DNA of 40,202 nucleotides from Clostridia bacterium (lineage in GTDB: Bacteria; Bacillota; Clostridia; Oscillospirales; RGIG8002): the NCBI GenBank assembly GCA_017620395.1, contig JAFZQJ010000033.1:1-40202 (forward strand), given 5' to 3'. The position numbers and the translations under genes were made by a program. The notes under the pieces were generated by a model. The model was not told the origin of the DNA, searched no databases, and saw nothing but the letters and a program-made list of their open reading frames with translations. Shown piece by piece: positions 3,877 to 24,015 of this stretch (positions are counted from its first letter, which is position 1; every line of letters starts with the position of its first letter).

Positions 3877-5058
3877 ATGAAAAAAATCATTGCTGCAATC
3901 CTTACGCTGACGCTGGTCGCGGCGCTCTTCACGGCGATGCCGACGGTTACGGCCGAAGCTGAAGAAGCAGTCACGATCAACGTTTACAACTGGGGCCAGT
4001 ACATCGGCGTCGGCGAGGACGACACGATCGACGTCAACGCCGAATTCACGAAGCGCACCGGCATAAAGGTCAACTACACGACCTACGACTCAAACGAAAC
4101 TATGCTGACGAAGCTGGAAACGGGCGGGTCGAGCTACGATATCATAATCCCCTCGGATTATATGATCGACCGCATGATAAAAAAGGACATGCTCGAGAAG
4201 CTGGATTTCTCCAACATCCCGAACTACAAATATATCGACGAAACGTATAAAAACACCGCCTACGACCCGAACAACGAATACTCCGTCCCCTACACCTACG
4301 GCACCGTCGGCATCATCTATAACACGAAATACGTCACCAAGACAGTCGACAGCTGGAACATTCTCTGGGACGAGGAATACAAAGACAAGATACTGACCTT
4401 CGACAACCCCCGCGATCTTTTCGCGATAGCGGAGTTCCTGCTCGGCATCGACGTCAACACCACCTCCCCCGAGGACTACGAGGCGTGCTACAACAAGCTG
4501 CTCGAGCAGAAGCCCGTTCTGCAGCAGTACGTTATGGATCAGATCTTCGACGCGATGATCAATGAATCCGCCTGGATCGCCCCCTACTACGCGGGCGACT
4601 TCGTGACGATGCACGAAGATAACCCCGACCTCGCCTTCTGCTATCCGAAGGAGGGCTTCAACTTCTTCATCGACGCCATCTGCATCCCGAAGGGCTGCGA
4701 GCACAAGGCGGAAGCCGAAGCGTATATCAACTTCCTCTGCGATCCCGAGATCTCCGGAAAGAATATGGACGCCATCGGCTACGCCACGCCCATTCCGGAG
4801 GCGAAGGAATACTTGAGCGAGGAATTCGCCGACAGCGACGTCGTCTACTTCGACGAAGCGACCGCCGCGAACTCCAAGATGTTCAAGGACCTCCCGGACG
4901 AGAGCTTCCAGCTGATGAACGATTACTGGTCAAAGCTGAAGGTCGAGGGCTCCGCGGGCTACACGCTCTATATCATCATCGGCGCGGCAATAGTCGCGAT
5001 AATCGCCGTTGTCGTCATCATCCGCATGCGTAAGAAAAAGCTCTACGAACAGGAATAA
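3877..5058 (+). CDS. potD: Polyamine-binding protein PotD-like, with a C-terminal membrane anchor
   Basis: The extracellular solute-binding protein of the transporter, 393 residues. An N-terminal signal peptide (about 1-28, ending near VTAEA) is followed by the PotD-like ligand-binding fold: INVYNWGQYI near 34-43, the DIIIPSDYMIDRM segment and the SVPYTYGTVGIIYN segment. It has no lipobox cysteine, which is unusual because Gram-positive PotD proteins are normally lipoproteins. Instead residues about 361-383 form a single transmembrane helix followed by a positively charged tail (RMRKKK). The protein therefore appears tethered by its C-terminus. It is the last gene of the pot operon and is followed by a large palindrome. 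Confidence 0.88.
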   Translation: MKKIIAAILTLTLVAALFTAMPTVTAEAEEAVTINVYNWGQYIGVGEDDTIDVNAEFTKRTGIKVNYTTYDSNETMLTKLETGGSSYDIIIPSDYMIDRMIKKDMLEKLDFSNIPNYKYIDETYKNTAYDPNNEYSVPYTYGTVGIIYNTKYVTKTVDSWNILWDEEYKDKILTFDNPRDLFAIAEFLLGIDVNTTSPEDYEACYNKLLEQKPVLQQYVMDQIFDAMINESAWIAPYYAGDFVTMHEDNPDLAFCYPKEGFNFFIDAICIPKGCEHKAEAEAYINFLCDPEISGKNMDAIGYATPIPEAKEYLSEEFADSDVVYFDEATAANSKMFKDLPDESFQLMNDYWSKLKVEGSAGYTLYIIIGAAIVAIIAVVVIIRMRKKKLYEQE

Positions 5059-5064
5059 GGAAAT

Positions 5065-5106
5065 ACACGCACCGTTCTCAGTCAATTGACTGAGAACGGT
5101 GCGTGT
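5065..5106. repeat. Perfect 42-bp palindrome between potD and the LRR gene
   Basis: Positions 5065-5085 are the exact reverse complement of 5086-5106, centred on GTCAATTGAC, with no unpaired centre. In RNA it would form a 19-bp stem on a minimal loop. It can end transcripts leaving potD, although the following U-rich run (ATTTTTT at about 5120) is 14 nt away. It also overlaps the -35 box of a candidate promoter for the next gene, so an operator role is possible. Confidence 0.75.
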
Positions 5107-5114
5107 TGAATAAT
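5086..5114 (+). promoter_or_regulatory. Candidate promoter for the LRR protein gene, overlapping the palindrome
   Basis: TTGACT (5086-5091) and AATAAT (5109-5114) are 17 bp apart, and each matches the sigma-A consensus at five of six positions. The -35 box is the right half of the palindrome centre. The predicted leader is about 30 nt. Confidence 0.4.
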
Positions 5115-5150
5115 TCAATCATTTTTTACACAACAAAAAGGAGGCAGCAC

Positions 5151-8100
5151 ATGAAAAACAAAACGTTCAGAAAGGCGCTCTCCGCGCTTCTCACCCTCGC
5201 GCTCCTGCTCGCGTTCGCGCCGACGGCGGTGATACCCGTCTCCGCGCTCACCGAGGGCGACTGGGAGTACACAGTCAGCGATAATAAAGTTGTTATCACC
5301 AAATACAACAGCGTCCTCGACGACTACGTCATCGTACCCGCCGAGCTCGGCGGTCATACGGTATCGATGATCGGCGACAACGCATTCCTTGACTGCGCTT
5401 CAATCCTCACGTCAGTGACCTTACCCGACTCGCTCGAGATCATAGGCGACCAAGCGTTCATGAACTGCTCCTCGCTCGAGTCGGTAACCTTCGGCAGCGG
5501 GCTGAAGAGCATCGGCTTGGACGCGTTCAGAAATTGCCACTCGCTGGAAATTAACAGCTTCCCCGACTCGCTCGAGAGCATAGGCGACGGCGCGTTCTCG
5601 AGCTGCACCTCGCTCACGTCCGTTTCCTTCCCGGCGTCGCTCAAAACGCTCGGAAACGGCGCTTTCCAAAACTCCGGCATCGAAACGGCGACCTTCTCCG
5701 GCGCGGGTCCGGAAACGATCGGCATCTCCGCTTTCCGCGCATGCGGCAATCTTGAATCCCTGACCTTCGGCAACGGACTGAAAACGATATGTTCGCACGC
5801 CTTTATGGATTGCATCTCGCTTACCTCCGCGACCTTCCCCGACTCGCTCGAGACCATCGAGGACGGCGCGTTCTCGACCTGCCTCTCGCTCGCGTCCGTT
5901 TCCTTCCCGGCGTCGCTCATAACGCTCAGAGACTACGCTTTCGACTACTGCTCCGGCATCAAGACGGCGACCTTCTCCGGCGCGGGTCCGGAAACGATCG
6001 GCAACTCCGCTTTCCGCTCATGCAGCTCCCTTGAATCCGTGACCTTCGGCAGCGGGCTGAAAACGATAGACGAAGACGCCTTTTCCATGTGCGAAAAACT
6101 CTCGTCCGTCAGCTTCCCGGCGTCGCTCGAAACGCTCGCCGAGAATGCGTTCGAGAGCTGCACCGCGCTCGCGACGGTCAACCTGCCCTTCACCGAGGCG
6201 GAGTGGACCGCGGCCGGCGGCTGGACGTACTACGGCGTGACCGAAACGAACAACGCCGAGCTTTATAACGCGGCGCTGACCTTTGTGCAGCCCGTGTTCG
6301 ATTACACAGACAACGGCGGCGTGACTATTACCGGCTGCACTAATATCGACAGATTCCCCGATCTCGTCATCCCCGCGCAGATCGGCGGCAGTGACGTCAC
6401 AGAGATTGCCGACGACGCCTTCAAAGGCATAGCGACCCTTAAAAGCGTGACCCTGCCCGACAGCGTTTCGGTCATCGGTTACGGCGCCTTCAGCAACTGC
6501 ACCTCGCTTGAAAGCGTCGAAATCCCGGATAGCTCGAGGCTCTTTATCATCAACAACGTCGCGTTTCAGAACTGCTCCGCGCTCCGGAGCATCAGTCTGC
6601 CGGACTCGCTGAGCACTCTCGGACAAAGCGCCTTCGAAAACTGCTCATCGCTCGCGAGCGTGACCTTCGGGAGCAGATGCTCTTTAAACGGTATCGGCTT
6701 TATGACGTTCTATGGATGCCGCTCGCTGACAAGCATCGTTCTGCCCGACGCGGTCAGGACTATCGAGGATTCCGCCTTCGAAAACTGCTCATCGCTCGCG
6801 TCCGTCACCTTCGGCAACCGGCTGGAGATGATATGTTACAGGGCGTTCGGCGAATGCGACGCGCTCGAAAGCGTCGCCTTCCCCTCCTCGCTCAATACGC
6901 TGTCGCAGAACGTGTTCTTCGGCTGCGAATCGCTCGCGACGGTCAACCTGCCCTTCACCAGAAGCGAGTGGAACGCCGCCGGCGGCTGGAGCAAATACGG
7001 CGTGGACGCGTCGAACAACGCCGAGCTTTATAACGCGGCGCTGACCTTCGTTAAGCCGGCTCCCGCCTTCACCTACGAAGTCGATTACCGCGGCGCAACG
7101 GTCACCGGATGCACGAATATCGACGATATCGAACACCTCGTCATCCCCGCCGAGCTCGGCGGCGAACCGGTACTCAATATAGGCGAAGACGCTTTCAGCG
7201 GATGCACCGGCATCAAAACCGTGATCTTACCCGACTCGCTCGAGAACATCGAGGACGGCGCGTTCAAGGGCTGCTCCGCGCTCGCTGCCGTCGACTTCGG
7301 CAGCGGAGTGGGAAACATCGAAGGCAGGGCGTTCGAAAACTGCGCCTCGCTCACGTCCGTGACCTTCCCGGACTCGCTTGACGGGATCGGCATCGGCGCG
7401 TTCAAGAACTGCACCTCGCTCGCGACAGTCGACTTCGGCAGCGGGCTGGAGGATATAGACTGCAACGCATTCGAAAACTGCGGCGTCACGTCGCTGGTAT
7501 TCCCCGATTCTCTTGAGTTGATTGACGAATGTGCGTTCAGCGGCTGCGGCAATCTCACTTCCGTCGACTTCGGAGACGGTGTGAAAGAGCTGGGGCAAGG
7601 CGCTTTTGAGGGCTGCGTCCTGCTCGAATCCGTCTTCCTCCCGGCTTCGCTCAGTGAGTTTTATGAAGAAGTGTTCGCCGACTGCTCGGCGCTCCGGACG
7701 GTCGTCTTCTCCGGCGAAGGCCCGGAGGAGATCGGCAGTGAAGCGTTTGACGGCTGCGGAAACCTCGAATCCGTCACCTTCGGCAGCGGGCTGAAGACGA
7801 TAGGCGCAAGCGCATTCGACGACTGCGTAAAGCTCGCGACCGTGACCTTCCCGGACTCGCTCGAGACCATCGACGAATACGCGTTCTATGGCTGCACTTC
7901 GCTCGCGACCGTTACCTTCGGCAGCGGTCTGAAAACGATAGAGCATCAGGCGTTCTATGAATGCGCCGCGCTCGCGACGGTAAACCTGCCGTTCACCGAA
8001 GCGCAGTGGAACGCCGGCGGCGGCTGGGCTCTTTACGGCGTGAACGCCAATAACAACGAAGAGCTTTATAACGCGGCGCTGACCTTCGTCATCCCGGTTC

Positions 8101-18972: not shown

Positions 18973-21015
18973 ATGGCAAAAGTGCAATCTGTGGAGCCTA
19001 ACATTGCTGATTTGGCAAACAGTTGGTTGAAATCGTTCGGTCTTGATTACAAACTGGAACAAGAATCCTTGAACGCAGAAATAGATTCTGCTCTGAATGA
19101 CTACGCTTCAAAAAACGGTGGCGCAGGAGGCAATCGTCCTGACGCTAAATTGTTGTTGAGCGATAAGAATATGGTCCATTATCCGATTTTGATTGAGTAT
19201 AAGGGCTATAAAGATAAACTCGTTATGCTTGATTCCGACGGAAGGGTTGCCAACAAAACCGCCAATAATACTCCTGATTATAAAGTAATCAATTCTTATG
19301 CCGTTAACGGTGCTGTTCACTACGCTAACGCAATTTTGCACTATACCAGTTATACGGAAATCATCGCAATCGGAATGACCGGTTACAAGGATGATACAGG
19401 CAAGCTGCAGTATGAGATTGGTGTATATTACGTATCCAAGAGCAATTACGGTGTCGGTCAAAAGGTAGACGACTATTCTGATCTTTCTTTTCTCAAAAGC
19501 GGCAACTTCGATCAGTTCATCGAAAAAGTCAAACAGCTGCAGTTATCACAAGAAGAAATTGAAAAGCTCAGAGAGCGACGCGAGCAGGAGATCAATACAA
19601 GTCTTGTTAAACTCAATAACGATATTTATCAGAACGAAAGAGGTTTGAGTGAACGCGATCGCGTTTATCTCGTTGCCGCATCTATTATTGCTACTCTGGG
19701 CGTTCCCGGGAAAGTCGCTGCCCTTGAAAAATCCGAACTTAAATCTTCTTCAGAGGATGGCAACCGAGACGGCGATATCATCCTCCGGAAGATAAAGGCG
19801 TTTTTGAACGAAAAGAAATTGCCACCGGAAAAGCGTGAGCTTATTGTCAGAACTCTTCAGAACACACTGACTACCGACAATATAAATAAAGTCGAAAATG
19901 GCGAAACACAGTTAAAACGTGTGTTCACAAAGATCATTGATGACTTGGGTATTTATTATAAAATCGGTCTCAGCACCGATTTTACAGGCAAGCTGTTCAA
20001 TGAAATGTATAGTTGGCTTGGTTTTTCGCAGGACAAGCTCAACGATGTTGTTTTGACGCCATCTTATGTGGCAACGCTTTTGGCAAAACTGGCAAGAGTG
20101 AATATGGATTCGTATGTGTGGGACTTTGCGACCGGTTCCGCAGGTCTTCTTGTTGCCTCAATGAACGAAATGCTGAATGACGCAAAAGATAAGATCAAAT
20201 CCCCTGATGCATTCACGATAAAATCCGCAGAAATTAAAGCCAACCAATTGCTCGGTCTGGAAATCCTCTCCGAAGTGTATATGCTTGCTATCCTCAACAT
20301 GATTCTTATGGGTGACGGCAGCTCTAACATTATCAATAAAGACTCTCTGAGGGAGTTTAACGGAAATTACGGGTTTGGAAAAACGAACGAGAAATTCCCC
20401 GCAGATGCGTTTGTTCTAAATCCGCCGTATTCTGCACCCGGAAACGGTATGATCTTCGTCGAAAAAGCGCTTTCCATGATGAGCAAGGGATACGCTGCAA
20501 TCATTATCCAAAATTCAGCTGGTAGCGGAAAAGCCATTGACTTCAACAAAAGAATCCTCAAGCACAGCACCTTGCTTGCAAGTATAAGAATGCCGTTAGA
20601 TCTCTTCATAGGTAAGTCTAACGTACAAACGAATGTTTATGTTTTCAGAGTGGGTGAAGCTCACCAAAAGGACGATATCGTTAAATTCATTGATTTCTCA
20701 AATGACGGTTATAAGAGAACAAATCGAAAAAAAGCAAAAATTAATCTTCGCGACGTTGACCACGCTAAAGGCAGATATACAGAGCTTGTTGATCTTGTAC
20801 GTTTCGGGAAGAGTAAGCTTCACTACTATACCGAGAAAGAATACTACGAGGGAACAATTGACCCTGATAGTGGCGCTGATTGGAATCAAACAGCACCTAT
20901 TGACACCAAACCCACAATAGAAGATTTTAAGAAAACCGTCAGTTCTTATCTTGCACATGAAATCTCAAGCCTGTTAAACAATAACGAATTGGAGGATGAC
21001 CGCCTGGGAAAATAA
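18973..21015 (+). CDS. BcgI-like restriction-modification subunit: nuclease fused to N6-adenine methyltransferase
   Basis: A 680-residue AT-rich gene. A PD-ExK-type nuclease centre is visible near the N-terminus: PD at 56-57 and, after a short hydrophobic strand, EYK at 75-77. A helical linker follows. The methyltransferase core has the SAM-binding DFATGSAG near residue 384 and the catalytic NPPY at 483-486, which indicates N6-adenine methylation. Nuclease, methylase and a separate specificity protein match the plan of BcgI, a type IIB enzyme that cuts on both sides of its site. The ATG at 18973 has GGAGGG upstream. The last codons run into TAA at a slippery heptamer that probably shifts some ribosomes into the specificity frame. 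Confidence 0.82.
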   Translation: MAKVQSVEPNIADLANSWLKSFGLDYKLEQESLNAEIDSALNDYASKNGGAGGNRPDAKLLLSDKNMVHYPILIEYKGYKDKLVMLDSDGRVANKTANNTPDYKVINSYAVNGAVHYANAILHYTSYTEIIAIGMTGYKDDTGKLQYEIGVYYVSKSNYGVGQKVDDYSDLSFLKSGNFDQFIEKVKQLQLSQEEIEKLRERREQEINTSLVKLNNDIYQNERGLSERDRVYLVAASIIATLGVPGKVAALEKSELKSSSEDGNRDGDIILRKIKAFLNEKKLPPEKRELIVRTLQNTLTTDNINKVENGETQLKRVFTKIIDDLGIYYKIGLSTDFTGKLFNEMYSWLGFSQDKLNDVVLTPSYVATLLAKLARVNMDSYVWDFATGSAGLLVASMNEMLNDAKDKIKSPDAFTIKSAEIKANQLLGLEILSEVYMLAILNMILMGDGSSNIINKDSLREFNGNYGFGKTNEKFPADAFVLNPPYSAPGNGMIFVEKALSMMSKGYAAIIIQNSAGSGKAIDFNKRILKHSTLLASIRMPLDLFIGKSNVQTNVYVFRVGEAHQKDDIVKFIDFSNDGYKRTNRKKAKINLRDVDHAKGRYTELVDLVRFGKSKLHYYTEKEYYEGTIDPDSGADWNQTAPIDTKPTIEDFKKTVSSYLAHEISSLLNNNELEDDRLGK

Positions 21016-21055
21016 ATGCCTCACTTAACGAAAAGCTGAGGAGTGTTAAGTGGGG
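20991..21055 (+). promoter_or_regulatory. Candidate programmed -1 ribosomal frameshift signal joining the RM and S frames
   Basis: Three elements stand in the order seen in dnaX-type sites. A Shine-Dalgarno-like GGAGG is at 20991-20995. Ten nt later comes the heptamer G_GGA_AAA (21006-21012), in phase with the methyltransferase codons and directly before its TAA. After a 6-nt spacer there is a stem of 11 bp, CCTCACTTAAC (21019-21029) with GTTAAGTGGGG (21045-21055), all paired with one G-U, and a 15-nt loop. A -1 slip enters the frame of the specificity subunit at ATA (21012). Function is inferred from architecture. Confidence 0.7.
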
Positions 21056-22124
21056 CGAATATAAACTCGGCGATTTGTTTGAAATAAATAACACTTTAAG
21101 TTTTAACACAAATGCGCTTGTTCCGGGAGATGAATATGATTATGTTACAAGAACTTCTGTAAATCAGGGTGTTCTTCAAACTACCGGTTTTGTTAATTTG
21201 GCAAATATAAATCCTGCAGGTATATGGAGTTTGGGGCTGCTTCAAATGGACTTTTTCTATCGAAGCAAACAATGGTATGCCGGGCAATTTGTACGAAAGG
21301 TTACACCCAAATTTACTGTCCCCGAAAACGCAGTATCGTTTTTTACAACTGTGTTAAACAAGATAAAGCCGATTCTGCTGTCAGTTCTCGTGCGAAATGT
21401 TGACAAAACCTTTAAGAGCATTAGAATTGAACTTCCTATAACTGCGGATAAAACAATTGATTTTGACTTTATAAGTGCCTTTATGGATGACATAAAGGCG
21501 GAGCGTATCGCTGCATTAACTTCATATTTTAAGGCAAATGGACTTATGCATGATGAAAAATGCGACGAGAACCAGAGTCCTATTGAAATACCAGTTGGCA
21601 TTCAATGGAAAGAATATAGGATGGGGGATCTGTTTGACAGAATTAAGACTAACAAGCTTCCGTATAAGGCGAAGGATTTACCTGCTGAAGCAAGGAATGA
21701 GTATGTTCTGCCTTGCCTGACTTCCAGCTTTAACAATCAAGGGCTTAACTATTATGCGCCTTATAGTGGTGCAACAGTCTTAAAGGATGTTATCACTTTG
21801 CCCTCAAACAGTGATGTTTATCGTGCATATTATCAGTCATCTGAGTTTACTGTGTTATCTGATGCTTATGCAATAGACTGGAAATATGATAATCGAAAGC
21901 TAACGCGAGAACAGTATCTGTTTATGGTAATGTGCATTAACAAGGTTACCGATCGCCCGATTTATTCACACAAGAATAAACTCGGCGGCTGGAATGTCGT
22001 TAGGAACAAGAAAATCAAGTTGCCGGTGGCAAACGGGGAAATAGATTTTGCATTTATGCATGATTTAATCTCTGCCATTGAAAAACTGGTTATCAAGGAT
22101 GTTGTCGATTACACAAGCAGATAG
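21012..22124 (+). CDS. Specificity (S) subunit of the BcgI-like system, probably expressed by -1 frameshift
   Basis: About 370 residues in a frame that opens after a TGA at 20997 and lacks ATG or GTG before the first conserved motif. There are two target-recognition halves. Each begins with the same element, KWGEYKLGDLFEI (from about 21048) and QWKEYRMGDLFDRI (from about 21604). Each ends in a helical spacer, IDFDFISAFMDDIKAERIAAL and IDFAFMHDLISAIEKLVI, a typical S-subunit duplication. Because the first motif lies upstream of the TTG at 21075, that TTG cannot be the true start. A -1 shift at the end of the methyltransferase would give a 1050-residue RM-S fusion. The alternative is a one-base loss in the A-run that separated the gene from its start. 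Confidence 0.8.
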   Translation: MNASLNEKLRSVKWGEYKLGDLFEINNTLSFNTNALVPGDEYDYVTRTSVNQGVLQTTGFVNLANINPAGIWSLGLLQMDFFYRSKQWYAGQFVRKVTPKFTVPENAVSFFTTVLNKIKPILLSVLVRNVDKTFKSIRIELPITADKTIDFDFISAFMDDIKAERIAALTSYFKANGLMHDEKCDENQSPIEIPVGIQWKEYRMGDLFDRIKTNKLPYKAKDLPAEARNEYVLPCLTSSFNNQGLNYYAPYSGATVLKDVITLPSNSDVYRAYYQSSEFTVLSDAYAIDWKYDNRKLTREQYLFMVMCINKVTDRPIYSHKNKLGGWNVVRNKKIKLPVANGEIDFAFMHDLISAIEKLVIKDVVDYTSR

Positions 22125-22222: not shown

Positions 22223-23530
22223 ATGGAAAAAGCGTTTGTATTTGGCGTTGCCCCGGCATTAATTAATGGTAAATGGCTTTATGAATTGATTGAAACAGAC
22301 TGTACATCACTATCACAAACATTTTTTCCAGCTGGTGTTTGTCCTCAAGAAACAAGGATTGTTGTGTTAGAAAATAGTTTATACAGAGATAAAGATCTTA
22401 AAAGGAGATATGAAAAAATGAAAGAAAAAGATGCGAAGATTGTTGAATTGAAGTCGGAGATTAATGATGATTATTCTGATGATTCTTTATTCAACATATC
22501 ATCCTGGGGAGCTGATTTGTCATTCAGGGAACTAATATCCATGTATGAAGATAATGAGCTTGTTAAGCCGGAATTACAGCGAAAATATGTTTGGGATAAA
22601 GTTGAAGCAAGCAGATTTATTGAATCAATTTTGCTTGGTTTGCCTGTACCCAGTATTTTTCTTGCACAATCCGGCAGCGAAAAGTTAATTGTAGATGGTT
22701 ATCAGCGTATAATGACAGTTTACGATTACGTAAGAGGTATTTTTTCTACGGATGAAAAAATATTCAAACTCTCAAATACAGAGAAAATCAATGCAAGATG
22801 GCGTAATAAAGCATTTGCAGAGTTATCAACTGATGATCAGCGAAAGATAAAGAGCACAACTATTCATGCAATTATTTTTGAGCAGAAAAAGCCTGAAAAT
22901 GATGACACAAGTTTATATCAAGTATTTGAGAGAATTAATACAAGTGGAAGAACATTGACTCCTCAAGAAATACGCAATTGCGTGTATCAAGGCACATTTA
23001 ACTCCCTTTTGTTTGAACTTAATAATAACCCAAAATGGAGATCGATGTATGGATCAGAAAAGCCAGATAGCAGAATGCGCGATATTGAATTTATTCTTCG
23101 TTTCTTCCTTATGAAATCCGAAATTGTATTAAAATCTGAAAGTAAACAAATACCGTTAAAAAAATCATTGAATAGTATTATGCATATCCATCAAAACGAG
23201 TTGTCTGATGGAATTGAAAAAATGCAAGACGATTTTAATAAAACCATTGATTATGTTTATAATTCATTGGGATTTAGAGCATTTAACAACTTCTCCCGTG
23301 GAGTTTTTACTAAAAATTTTCACCCGGCAATTTATGACTCTATAATGGTTGCAGCTTTCTTTGCCATGGAAGGCGGAATAGAAGCACGTCCTATTAATGA
23401 AGATACCCATAAGCAACTGTTGTCAAACGAAGAATATATGACCTCAATCAGCCAACGAACAACAGATATTGAGAGCATAAAAACAAGAATACACTTAGCT
23501 GGACAGCTTTTGTTTGGGGCAGAAATATGA
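22223..23530 (+). CDS. DUF262-domain protein (GmrSD/ParB-like nuclease superfamily)
   Basis: A 435-residue AT-rich gene. The DUF262 core starts near residue 95. Family signatures are ELQRKYVWDKVEASRFIESILLGLPVP (117-143), VDGYQR (157-162, where most members have DGQQR) and VFERINTSGRTLTPQEIRN (about 238-256). DUF262 proteins occur in modification-dependent restriction (GmrSD) and other defence loci, where this core is proposed to hydrolyse NTP or cut DNA. The first 65 residues are not typical of the family. A second in-frame ATG at 22418 (Met66) has a stronger ribosome-binding site (AAAGGAG), so a shorter form is possible. The gene overlaps the HEPN gene by four bases. Confidence 0.8.
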   Translation: MEKAFVFGVAPALINGKWLYELIETDCTSLSQTFFPAGVCPQETRIVVLENSLYRDKDLKRRYEKMKEKDAKIVELKSEINDDYSDDSLFNISSWGADLSFRELISMYEDNELVKPELQRKYVWDKVEASRFIESILLGLPVPSIFLAQSGSEKLIVDGYQRIMTVYDYVRGIFSTDEKIFKLSNTEKINARWRNKAFAELSTDDQRKIKSTTIHAIIFEQKKPENDDTSLYQVFERINTSGRTLTPQEIRNCVYQGTFNSLLFELNNNPKWRSMYGSEKPDSRMRDIEFILRFFLMKSEIVLKSESKQIPLKKSLNSIMHIHQNELSDGIEKMQDDFNKTIDYVYNSLGFRAFNNFSRGVFTKNFHPAIYDSIMVAAFFAMEGGIEARPINEDTHKQLLSNEEYMTSISQRTTDIESIKTRIHLAGQLLFGAEI

Positions 23531-24015
23531 AACAGGAGTTGCAAGATTTAATTTCTGAATGTTCCACGGAATTAGTTGATATTGAATCTCGAATACAATC
23601 ACTACAACCTTTTGATAAAGAAATTCGATACCTGACCAATTACGCTCTAATAAAAGCCGCTGGAACTGCAGAATATGTGTATCGGTCAATTGTAGCAGAT
23701 TATTTCTCAAGATTATCTGATAGCCGTGTCGATACATATATAGATTCAACAGTAAGAAACGGGTCAATGAGCGCAAAATATGAGGAAATGTGTAAACTCT
23801 TAGGTCGCTTTGATACAGTGTGGTGTAATAACTTCAAAAATGCTGTAAAGTCTAATCCCGACAGTCAGAGAATAGTGGCCGCCTCAAATTCATTAGTAAC
23901 AAATCGCCACAGTTTTGCACACGGAAAAAATCCAACAGCCACTTTTAGCGATATAAAGCAATACTATCAAGACATTGTTAATCTGATTAATATTTTTGAC
24001 TCTATCGTTTGTTAA
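23527..24015 (+). CDS. HEPN-like protein with Rx4H motif (putative RNase partner of the DUF262 protein)
   Basis: A 162-residue, mostly helical protein. Near the C-terminus it carries NRHSFAHGKNP with Arg127 and His132, the Rx4H catalytic signature of HEPN ribonucleases, in the form seen in MAE_28990/MAE_18760-type HEPN proteins. The gene starts inside the DUF262 stop region (ATGA overlap), so the two are translationally coupled and likely act as one module. HEPN proteins often serve as RNA-cutting effectors in toxin-antitoxin and abortive-infection systems; that role here is inference. A hairpin terminator follows 13 nt after the stop. Confidence 0.72.
   Translation: MKQELQDLISECSTELVDIESRIQSLQPFDKEIRYLTNYALIKAAGTAEYVYRSIVADYFSRLSDSRVDTYIDSTVRNGSMSAKYEEMCKLLGRFDTVWCNNFKNAVKSNPDSQRIVAASNSLVTNRHSFAHGKNPTATFSDIKQYYQDIVNLINIFDSIVC

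Follow-up and report, generated by a model that had tools for sequence, protein, structure and literature searches.

Sequence evidence for programmed −1 frameshifting between the RM and S frames of a BcgI-like restriction system

How is a specificity (S) subunit translated when its reading frame offers no usable start codon? This question is raised by a locus within a 40,202-nt stretch of Clostridia bacterium DNA (contig JAFZQJ010000033.1; hereafter, the window), where an S frame follows an RM subunit gene in the −1 frame. A first-pass annotation had proposed that the two are fused by a programmed −1 frameshift. The features of the locus are listed below.

18973–21015, + strand: RM subunit gene, nuclease plus N6-adenine methyltransferase; open frame, 680-aa zero-frame product
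20991–20995, + strand: GGAGG, Shine-Dalgarno (SD)-like stimulator, ending 10 nt 5' of the heptamer
21006–21012, + strand: slippery heptamer G_GGA_AAA; a canonical X_XXY_YYZ is kept in 89 of 92 related junctions
21013–21015, + strand: zero-frame stop TAA, abutting the heptamer; the stop is immediate in 82 of 92 junctions
21017–21029, + strand: 5' arm of the hairpin (11-bp core, 21019–21029)
21030–21044, + strand: 15-nt hairpin loop, from a hairpin search and folding
21045–21057, + strand: 3' arm of the hairpin (11-bp core, 21045–21055)
21012–22124, + strand: S domain in the −1 frame, with two target-recognition domains (TRDs); 370 codons follow the slip
18973–22124, + strand: inferred RM-S fusion product, 1050 aa, 118.6 kDa

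The junction and its predicted products

The RM gene ends CTG_GGA_AAA_TAA, and its predicted zero-frame product has a mass of 76.2 kDa. The S frame is closed upstream by TGA at 20997–20999 and stays open until TAG at 22122–22124. Neither ATG nor GTG occurs in it ahead of the motif KWGEYKLGDLF (21048–21080), and the earliest ATG, GTG or TTG, the TTG at 21075, lies within that motif, which is repeated as QWKEYRMGDLF (21603–21635) in the second half of S. The hairpin follows the heptamer after a 6-nt spacer; its 11-bp core stem can be extended to 13 bp. The coordinates, spacings and product sizes (680 and 1050 residues) of the first-pass annotation were all reproduced from the sequence. It therefore appears from the reading frames that RM-S is made by a slip at the heptamer, and that the S frame is reached only in this way.

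Both frames encode recognizable restriction-modification proteins. RM matched Pfam N6_Mtase (6e-21) and, over its full length, PADLOC REase_MTase_IIG PDLC03616 (3e-239). It carries a PD..EYK nuclease-like motif at residues 56–77 and NPPY at 483, and its predicted structure resembled HsdM and the RM chains of the Type IIB enzyme BsaXI. The S frame matched Pfam Methylase_S (3.5e-29) and PADLOC Specificity_II (1.7e-65); structure comparison returned the S subunits 1ydx and 1yf2 and BsaXI S. In profile searches of the PDB, 1ydx was the sole match to S and none was found for RM; PDB sequence searches with the single RM and S proteins also found none.

According to folding calculations, the hairpin of the window has a free energy of −19.5 kcal/mol (z −5.4), and none of 200 shuffled sequences was as stable. 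A covariance model of the junction matched the 1.93-Mb genome once, at 20990–21066 (E 6.6e-17), and gave one match per genome in ten named carriers.

One expectation of the first-pass annotation was mistaken. It held that five A residues at the A-run would leave an S gene opening at the ATG at 20996. Five would instead fuse RM to S in frame; it is three that would open the ATG 20996 frame. No separate S gene opened from such an ATG was seen among the junctions of the clade, nor was any other outcome that the annotation had named as speaking against a shift; a distant relative that does have five A's, L099, is an in-frame fusion.

Adjoining the RM-S operon at 22223–24015 is a GmrSD_N/DUF262 gene that overlaps a small HEPN gene, a pair resembling the PD-T4-2/NsnA defence pair (PADLOC 3e-46 and 4e-64; the match of the HEPN partner is weak). 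The stretch from 19 to 24 kb is 34–43% G+C, as against 48–59% around it, and thus looks like an acquired defence island.

Conservation of the junction among relatives

A single scan with RM yielded 80 loci of 69–88% identity in Bacillota, Bacteroidota, Campylobacterota, Pseudomonadota, Spirochaetota, Mycoplasmatota and Lentisphaerota, and the RM frames of virtually all ended in the same way. These loci were combined with viral contigs and with phage, plasmid and E. coli records into a set of 92 junctions. Across the seven phyla and the phage and plasmid records, the heptamer was canonical in all but three junctions: G_GGA_AAA in 58, G_GGA_AAG in 21, A_AAA_AAG in six and A_AAA_AAA in four. Where the zero-frame stop was not immediate, it lay one codon later in a further seven junctions. 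The sites of L028 and L043 are non-canonical; in L098 and L077 the heptamer is present and the zero-frame stop comes 8–11 codons late. The three-part signal that the annotation had likened to that of dnaX is thus conserved (89/92 heptamers, 78/78 hairpins and an SD-like element in most junctions), and the comparison of heptamer, spacer and stem among relatives, including compensatory changes, came out strongly in its favour.

Most Bacillota have A as the last base of the heptamer, and G is frequent among Gram-negative carriers; this base changes at least six times on the RM tree and may follow the lysine tRNA of the host. In one Bacillota locus (L084, 861–1526), an unrelated N-terminus is joined to just the last 136 RM residues, after which come an intact signal and the S frame; this may be a specificity cassette that has been rearranged or is silent. 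The R1 match L085 was set aside as a chance match, with no RM or S gene nearby.

The S subunits of classical BcgI-like and Type I operons are free proteins, and S could in principle be made here by translational coupling, with ribosomes terminating on RM and reinitiating nearby. The outgroups L114–L118 do have separate S genes with overlapping ATGs, and in 13 of 77 junctions a TGA stop after the heptamer creates an overlapping ATG (A-ATG-A) in the S frame, so that those members might also make free S by reinitiation. However, most junctions have TAA or TAG, and the corresponding S-frame codon is therefore ATA or GTA; in 36 of the 77, ATG, GTG and TTG are wholly absent from the S frame before the motif. 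Moreover, reinitiation needs no canonical heptamer, and the separate S genes of the outgroups lie in the other (+1) frame, where no heptamer is found. At most loci, coupled reinitiation thus has no start codon to work from, and it leaves the heptamer unexplained; we consider it very unlikely as the general explanation. The missing start is also reflected in RefSeq, where S is annotated from a GTG 71 nt into the frame or called partial. The S subunits of these systems, those of E. coli included, are accordingly mis-annotated or truncated in databases.

Selection on the RNA signal

Frameshifting predicts constraint on the nucleotides of the junction beyond that imposed by the proteins, and three tests agree on such RNA-level selection. 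The first concerns the heptamer. The residue preceding the terminal Gly-Lys of RM is variable (L, E, Q, P, G, M, V, K or A), yet the codon preceding GGA ends in G and that preceding AAA ends in A, against a codon background in these genes in which GGA makes up 34% of Gly codons and ∼26% of Leu codons end in G. On the RM tree, the heptamer class changes at least 14 times, yet almost all of its states are canonical slippery heptamers. Since the tail residue varies and the slippery nucleotides do not, the heptamer is very unlikely to be a by-product of the protein tail.

The second concerns the hairpin, which was present at all 78 main-set junctions tested, 3–7 nt 3' of the heptamer. In the hairpin alignment, 97.2% of cells pair, and two-sided changes occur at six of 12 pairs. 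None of 500 shuffles reached the observed pairing on any measure, and slid registers paired at 36–49%. Pair 37–67 exists as UA (40), CG (16), UG (13) and GC (4) and must have changed 24 times or more on the RM tree; viewed as protein, the covariation has a Leu codon on the other arm matching Lys, Glu or Gln at one site. In the third test, synonymous codons were resampled with both protein sequences fixed: 8.2 of 12 pairs were expected and 11.8 observed, the difference being individually significant (p<0.05) in 75/75 sequences.

The SD-like window of 89 junctions binds the anti-SD sequence at a mean of −6.8 kcal/mol, versus −1.1 kcal/mol for background; in 83% of junctions it is among the top 5% of all windows of its gene. 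The element is absent from some Bacteroidota junctions, which may be expected because this group makes little use of SD initiation.

Prophages of E. coli provide a further comparison. Of 5426 complete E. coli genomes, 29 carry the system, which lies close to antitermination Q and hok genes. Two signals, unrelated in sequence but built alike, occur there on RM genes whose DNA is 98.7% identical. The first is G_GGA_AAG_TAA with a stem of the common type, CCCCGCTCA (L112, L120 and L125). In the second, a single codon separates A_AAA_AAG from the stop, and the hairpin that follows, AAACTCCCG..CGGGAGTTT, is unrelated to the common type (L093, L094, L097 and L121–L124). The RM genes remain ∼98.7% identical until ∼43 nt before the stop and diverge thereafter. 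It appears from this breakpoint that an exchange of specificity transfers tail, slip signal and S together. Two unrelated natural signals on a near-identical RM gene also offer a test bed for what a frameshift signal requires.

These data bear on three further explanations. In the first, transcriptional slippage at the A-run would place S in frame in some mRNAs. Runs of seven A's do occur, in the four A_AAA_AAA junctions; however, most junctions have three or four (GGGAAAG, GGGAAAA), whereas the known transcriptional slippage sites discussed in PMC5009743 have ∼9 A or T. Slippage would also leave the covarying hairpin, the SD-like element and the G at the end of the codon before GGA unexplained, and we regard it as highly improbable. 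In the second, the inverted repeat serves another purpose, for instance mRNA stability, attenuation or the binding of a regulator, and the heptamer simply results from a conserved LGK tail. Inverted repeats are common near gene junctions, but it is the tail residue that varies and the slippery nucleotides that are constant, the hairpin sequence is replaced wholesale between L093/L122 and L112 with its position kept, and no Rfam family reached its gathering score near the junction; this explanation is scarcely credible. The last, that the frames are split by an indel introduced in sequencing or assembly or belong to a broken pseudogene, is virtually negligible: the window does come from a 35-contig assembly and one base would join the frames, but the same frame relation recurs in ∼90 loci with both frames long and open, and its presence in complete genomes (Ruminococcus bicirculans 80/3, Haemophilus aegyptius NCTC8502 and many E. 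coli) excludes assembly error.

Overall, the junction combines the sequence hallmarks of bacterial programmed −1 frameshifting, namely a heptamer, a downstream structure, an SD-like stimulator (which is optional) and constraint beyond coding. Such frameshifting very probably yields both RM (76 kDa) and RM-S (119 kDa) from this Type IIG/IIB BcgI-like operon.

Proposed mechanism and comparison with known systems

In the proposed mechanism, ribosomes translating the RM gene would pause at G_GGA_AAA, with the hairpin six nucleotides ahead and the SD-like element behind. Some would slip back one base and enter the S frame to make RM-S, and the remainder would stop at once and release RM. RM and RM-S would then assemble so that two RM domains serve one two-domain S. 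BcgI itself is a 2RM:1S enzyme (PMC4081073), as the first-pass annotation had stated, and co-production of RM and RM-S could supply this 2:1 need without a separate S gene. We infer that slip efficiency is substantial and that both proteins accumulate, the selected quantity being the ratio of RM to RM-S, ideally ∼1:1 to serve 2RM:1S. G_GGA_AAG and A_AAA_AAG are among the strongest bacterial heptamers (PMC4066793 and PMC5009743); G_GGA_AAA, the variant of the window, is inefficient in E. coli assays (PMC4066793), the native host here being a Clostridia bacterium.

The limits of the clade are marked by relatives of two kinds. The Lactobacillaceae relatives (L114/L115; RM ∼40% identity) and the system of phage phi-42 (L116; RM ∼27% identity), which we take to be the BcgI-like Sau42I, have a separate S. 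The term "BcgI-like" is a fair description, although the frameshifted systems form a clade separate from these. In-frame RM-S fusions were found only at L057 and L099 among the relatives examined. L057 has one recognition domain. In L099 (57% identity), S shares the zero frame with RM owing to the five-A run; ribosomes slipping by −1 at the same heptamer would meet a TAG after two codons, and the product would be truncated to RM. The hairpin of L099 is different again, GCCATTCAATG..CATTGAATGGC. This single sequence looks like the reversed frame order of some dnaX genes described in PMC5009743. A search for relatives of the frame-swapped L099 returned the same contig only. Between its two recognition domains, L099 carries GACA tetranucleotide repeats (4960–5700), which suggest added phase variation. 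Since in-frame RM-S is tolerated at L057 and L099, the persistence of the out-of-frame arrangement is hard to explain unless RM alone is needed. It is probable that the whole clade, which would have moved among at least seven phyla and prophages, does without an S gene, that the −1 shift sets RM:RM-S at ∼1:1 and so gives every complex two catalytic domains and a single two-headed recognition module, and that the cassette travels with S upon exchange of specificity.

A widespread family of anti-phage restriction enzymes appears in this way to make its recognition subunit only upon a slip of the ribosome. To our knowledge, few bacterial chromosomal genes outside transposons use programmed −1 frameshifting. 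As the first-pass annotation had supposed, the open-access papers searched held no report of frameshifting in an RM or S gene and described no restriction enzyme as −1 frameshifted. No such case is mentioned in PMC3711429 or in the available part of PMC5009743, which survey or review frameshifting. A −1 frameshift has been suspected in a fusion of a C protein and a restriction endonuclease, whose product the authors sought and did not find (PMC3850674).

Among known systems, BcgI, BsaXI and phi-42 share with the window an RM with an N-terminal nuclease-like motif and a gamma-type adenine methyltransferase, and a two-TRD, Type I-like S subunit, in one operon. The BcgI type differs in having S as a separate gene that brings a start codon of its own and needs no frameshift, whereas the S frame of the window has no start. 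AloI, TstI and CjeI, in which RM and S occupy one ORF, are made as the fusion only, with one catalytic domain per two TRDs; in the window, a stop and a −1 offset separate the two frames, and RM is encoded alone as well. For such single-chain enzymes, the way in which a lone catalytic domain works with two recognition domains has been called a mystery (PMC3874165). If RM and RM-S are both made, two forms from one gene would be a possible answer to this Type IIB puzzle.

Haemophilus aegyptius NCTC8502 carries a member of the clade that has G_GGA_AAG_TAA with a longer loop (L075, 5037–6203). L075 is the sole homologue in that genome, has two different TRDs and would encode products of 77 and 121 kDa. 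HaeIV is reportedly a single polypeptide, and we considered whether it is the shift product of L075.

The signal itself is most like that of dnaX (tau/gamma), which has an upstream SD, an A_AAA_AAG or G_GGA_AAR heptamer and a downstream hairpin, and makes two products with a common N-terminus; half of the ribosomes shift on E. coli dnaX (PMC5009743). The gene is unrelated, however, the hairpin sequence is different, and in RM-S it is the longer product that results from the shift. The closest protein parallel is the artificial M-S fusion of EcoKI (Type IMS), which is active in vitro only with added free M (PMC3510504). That fusion was engineered and has no frameshift signal; RM-S would be its natural version, with RM replacing M.
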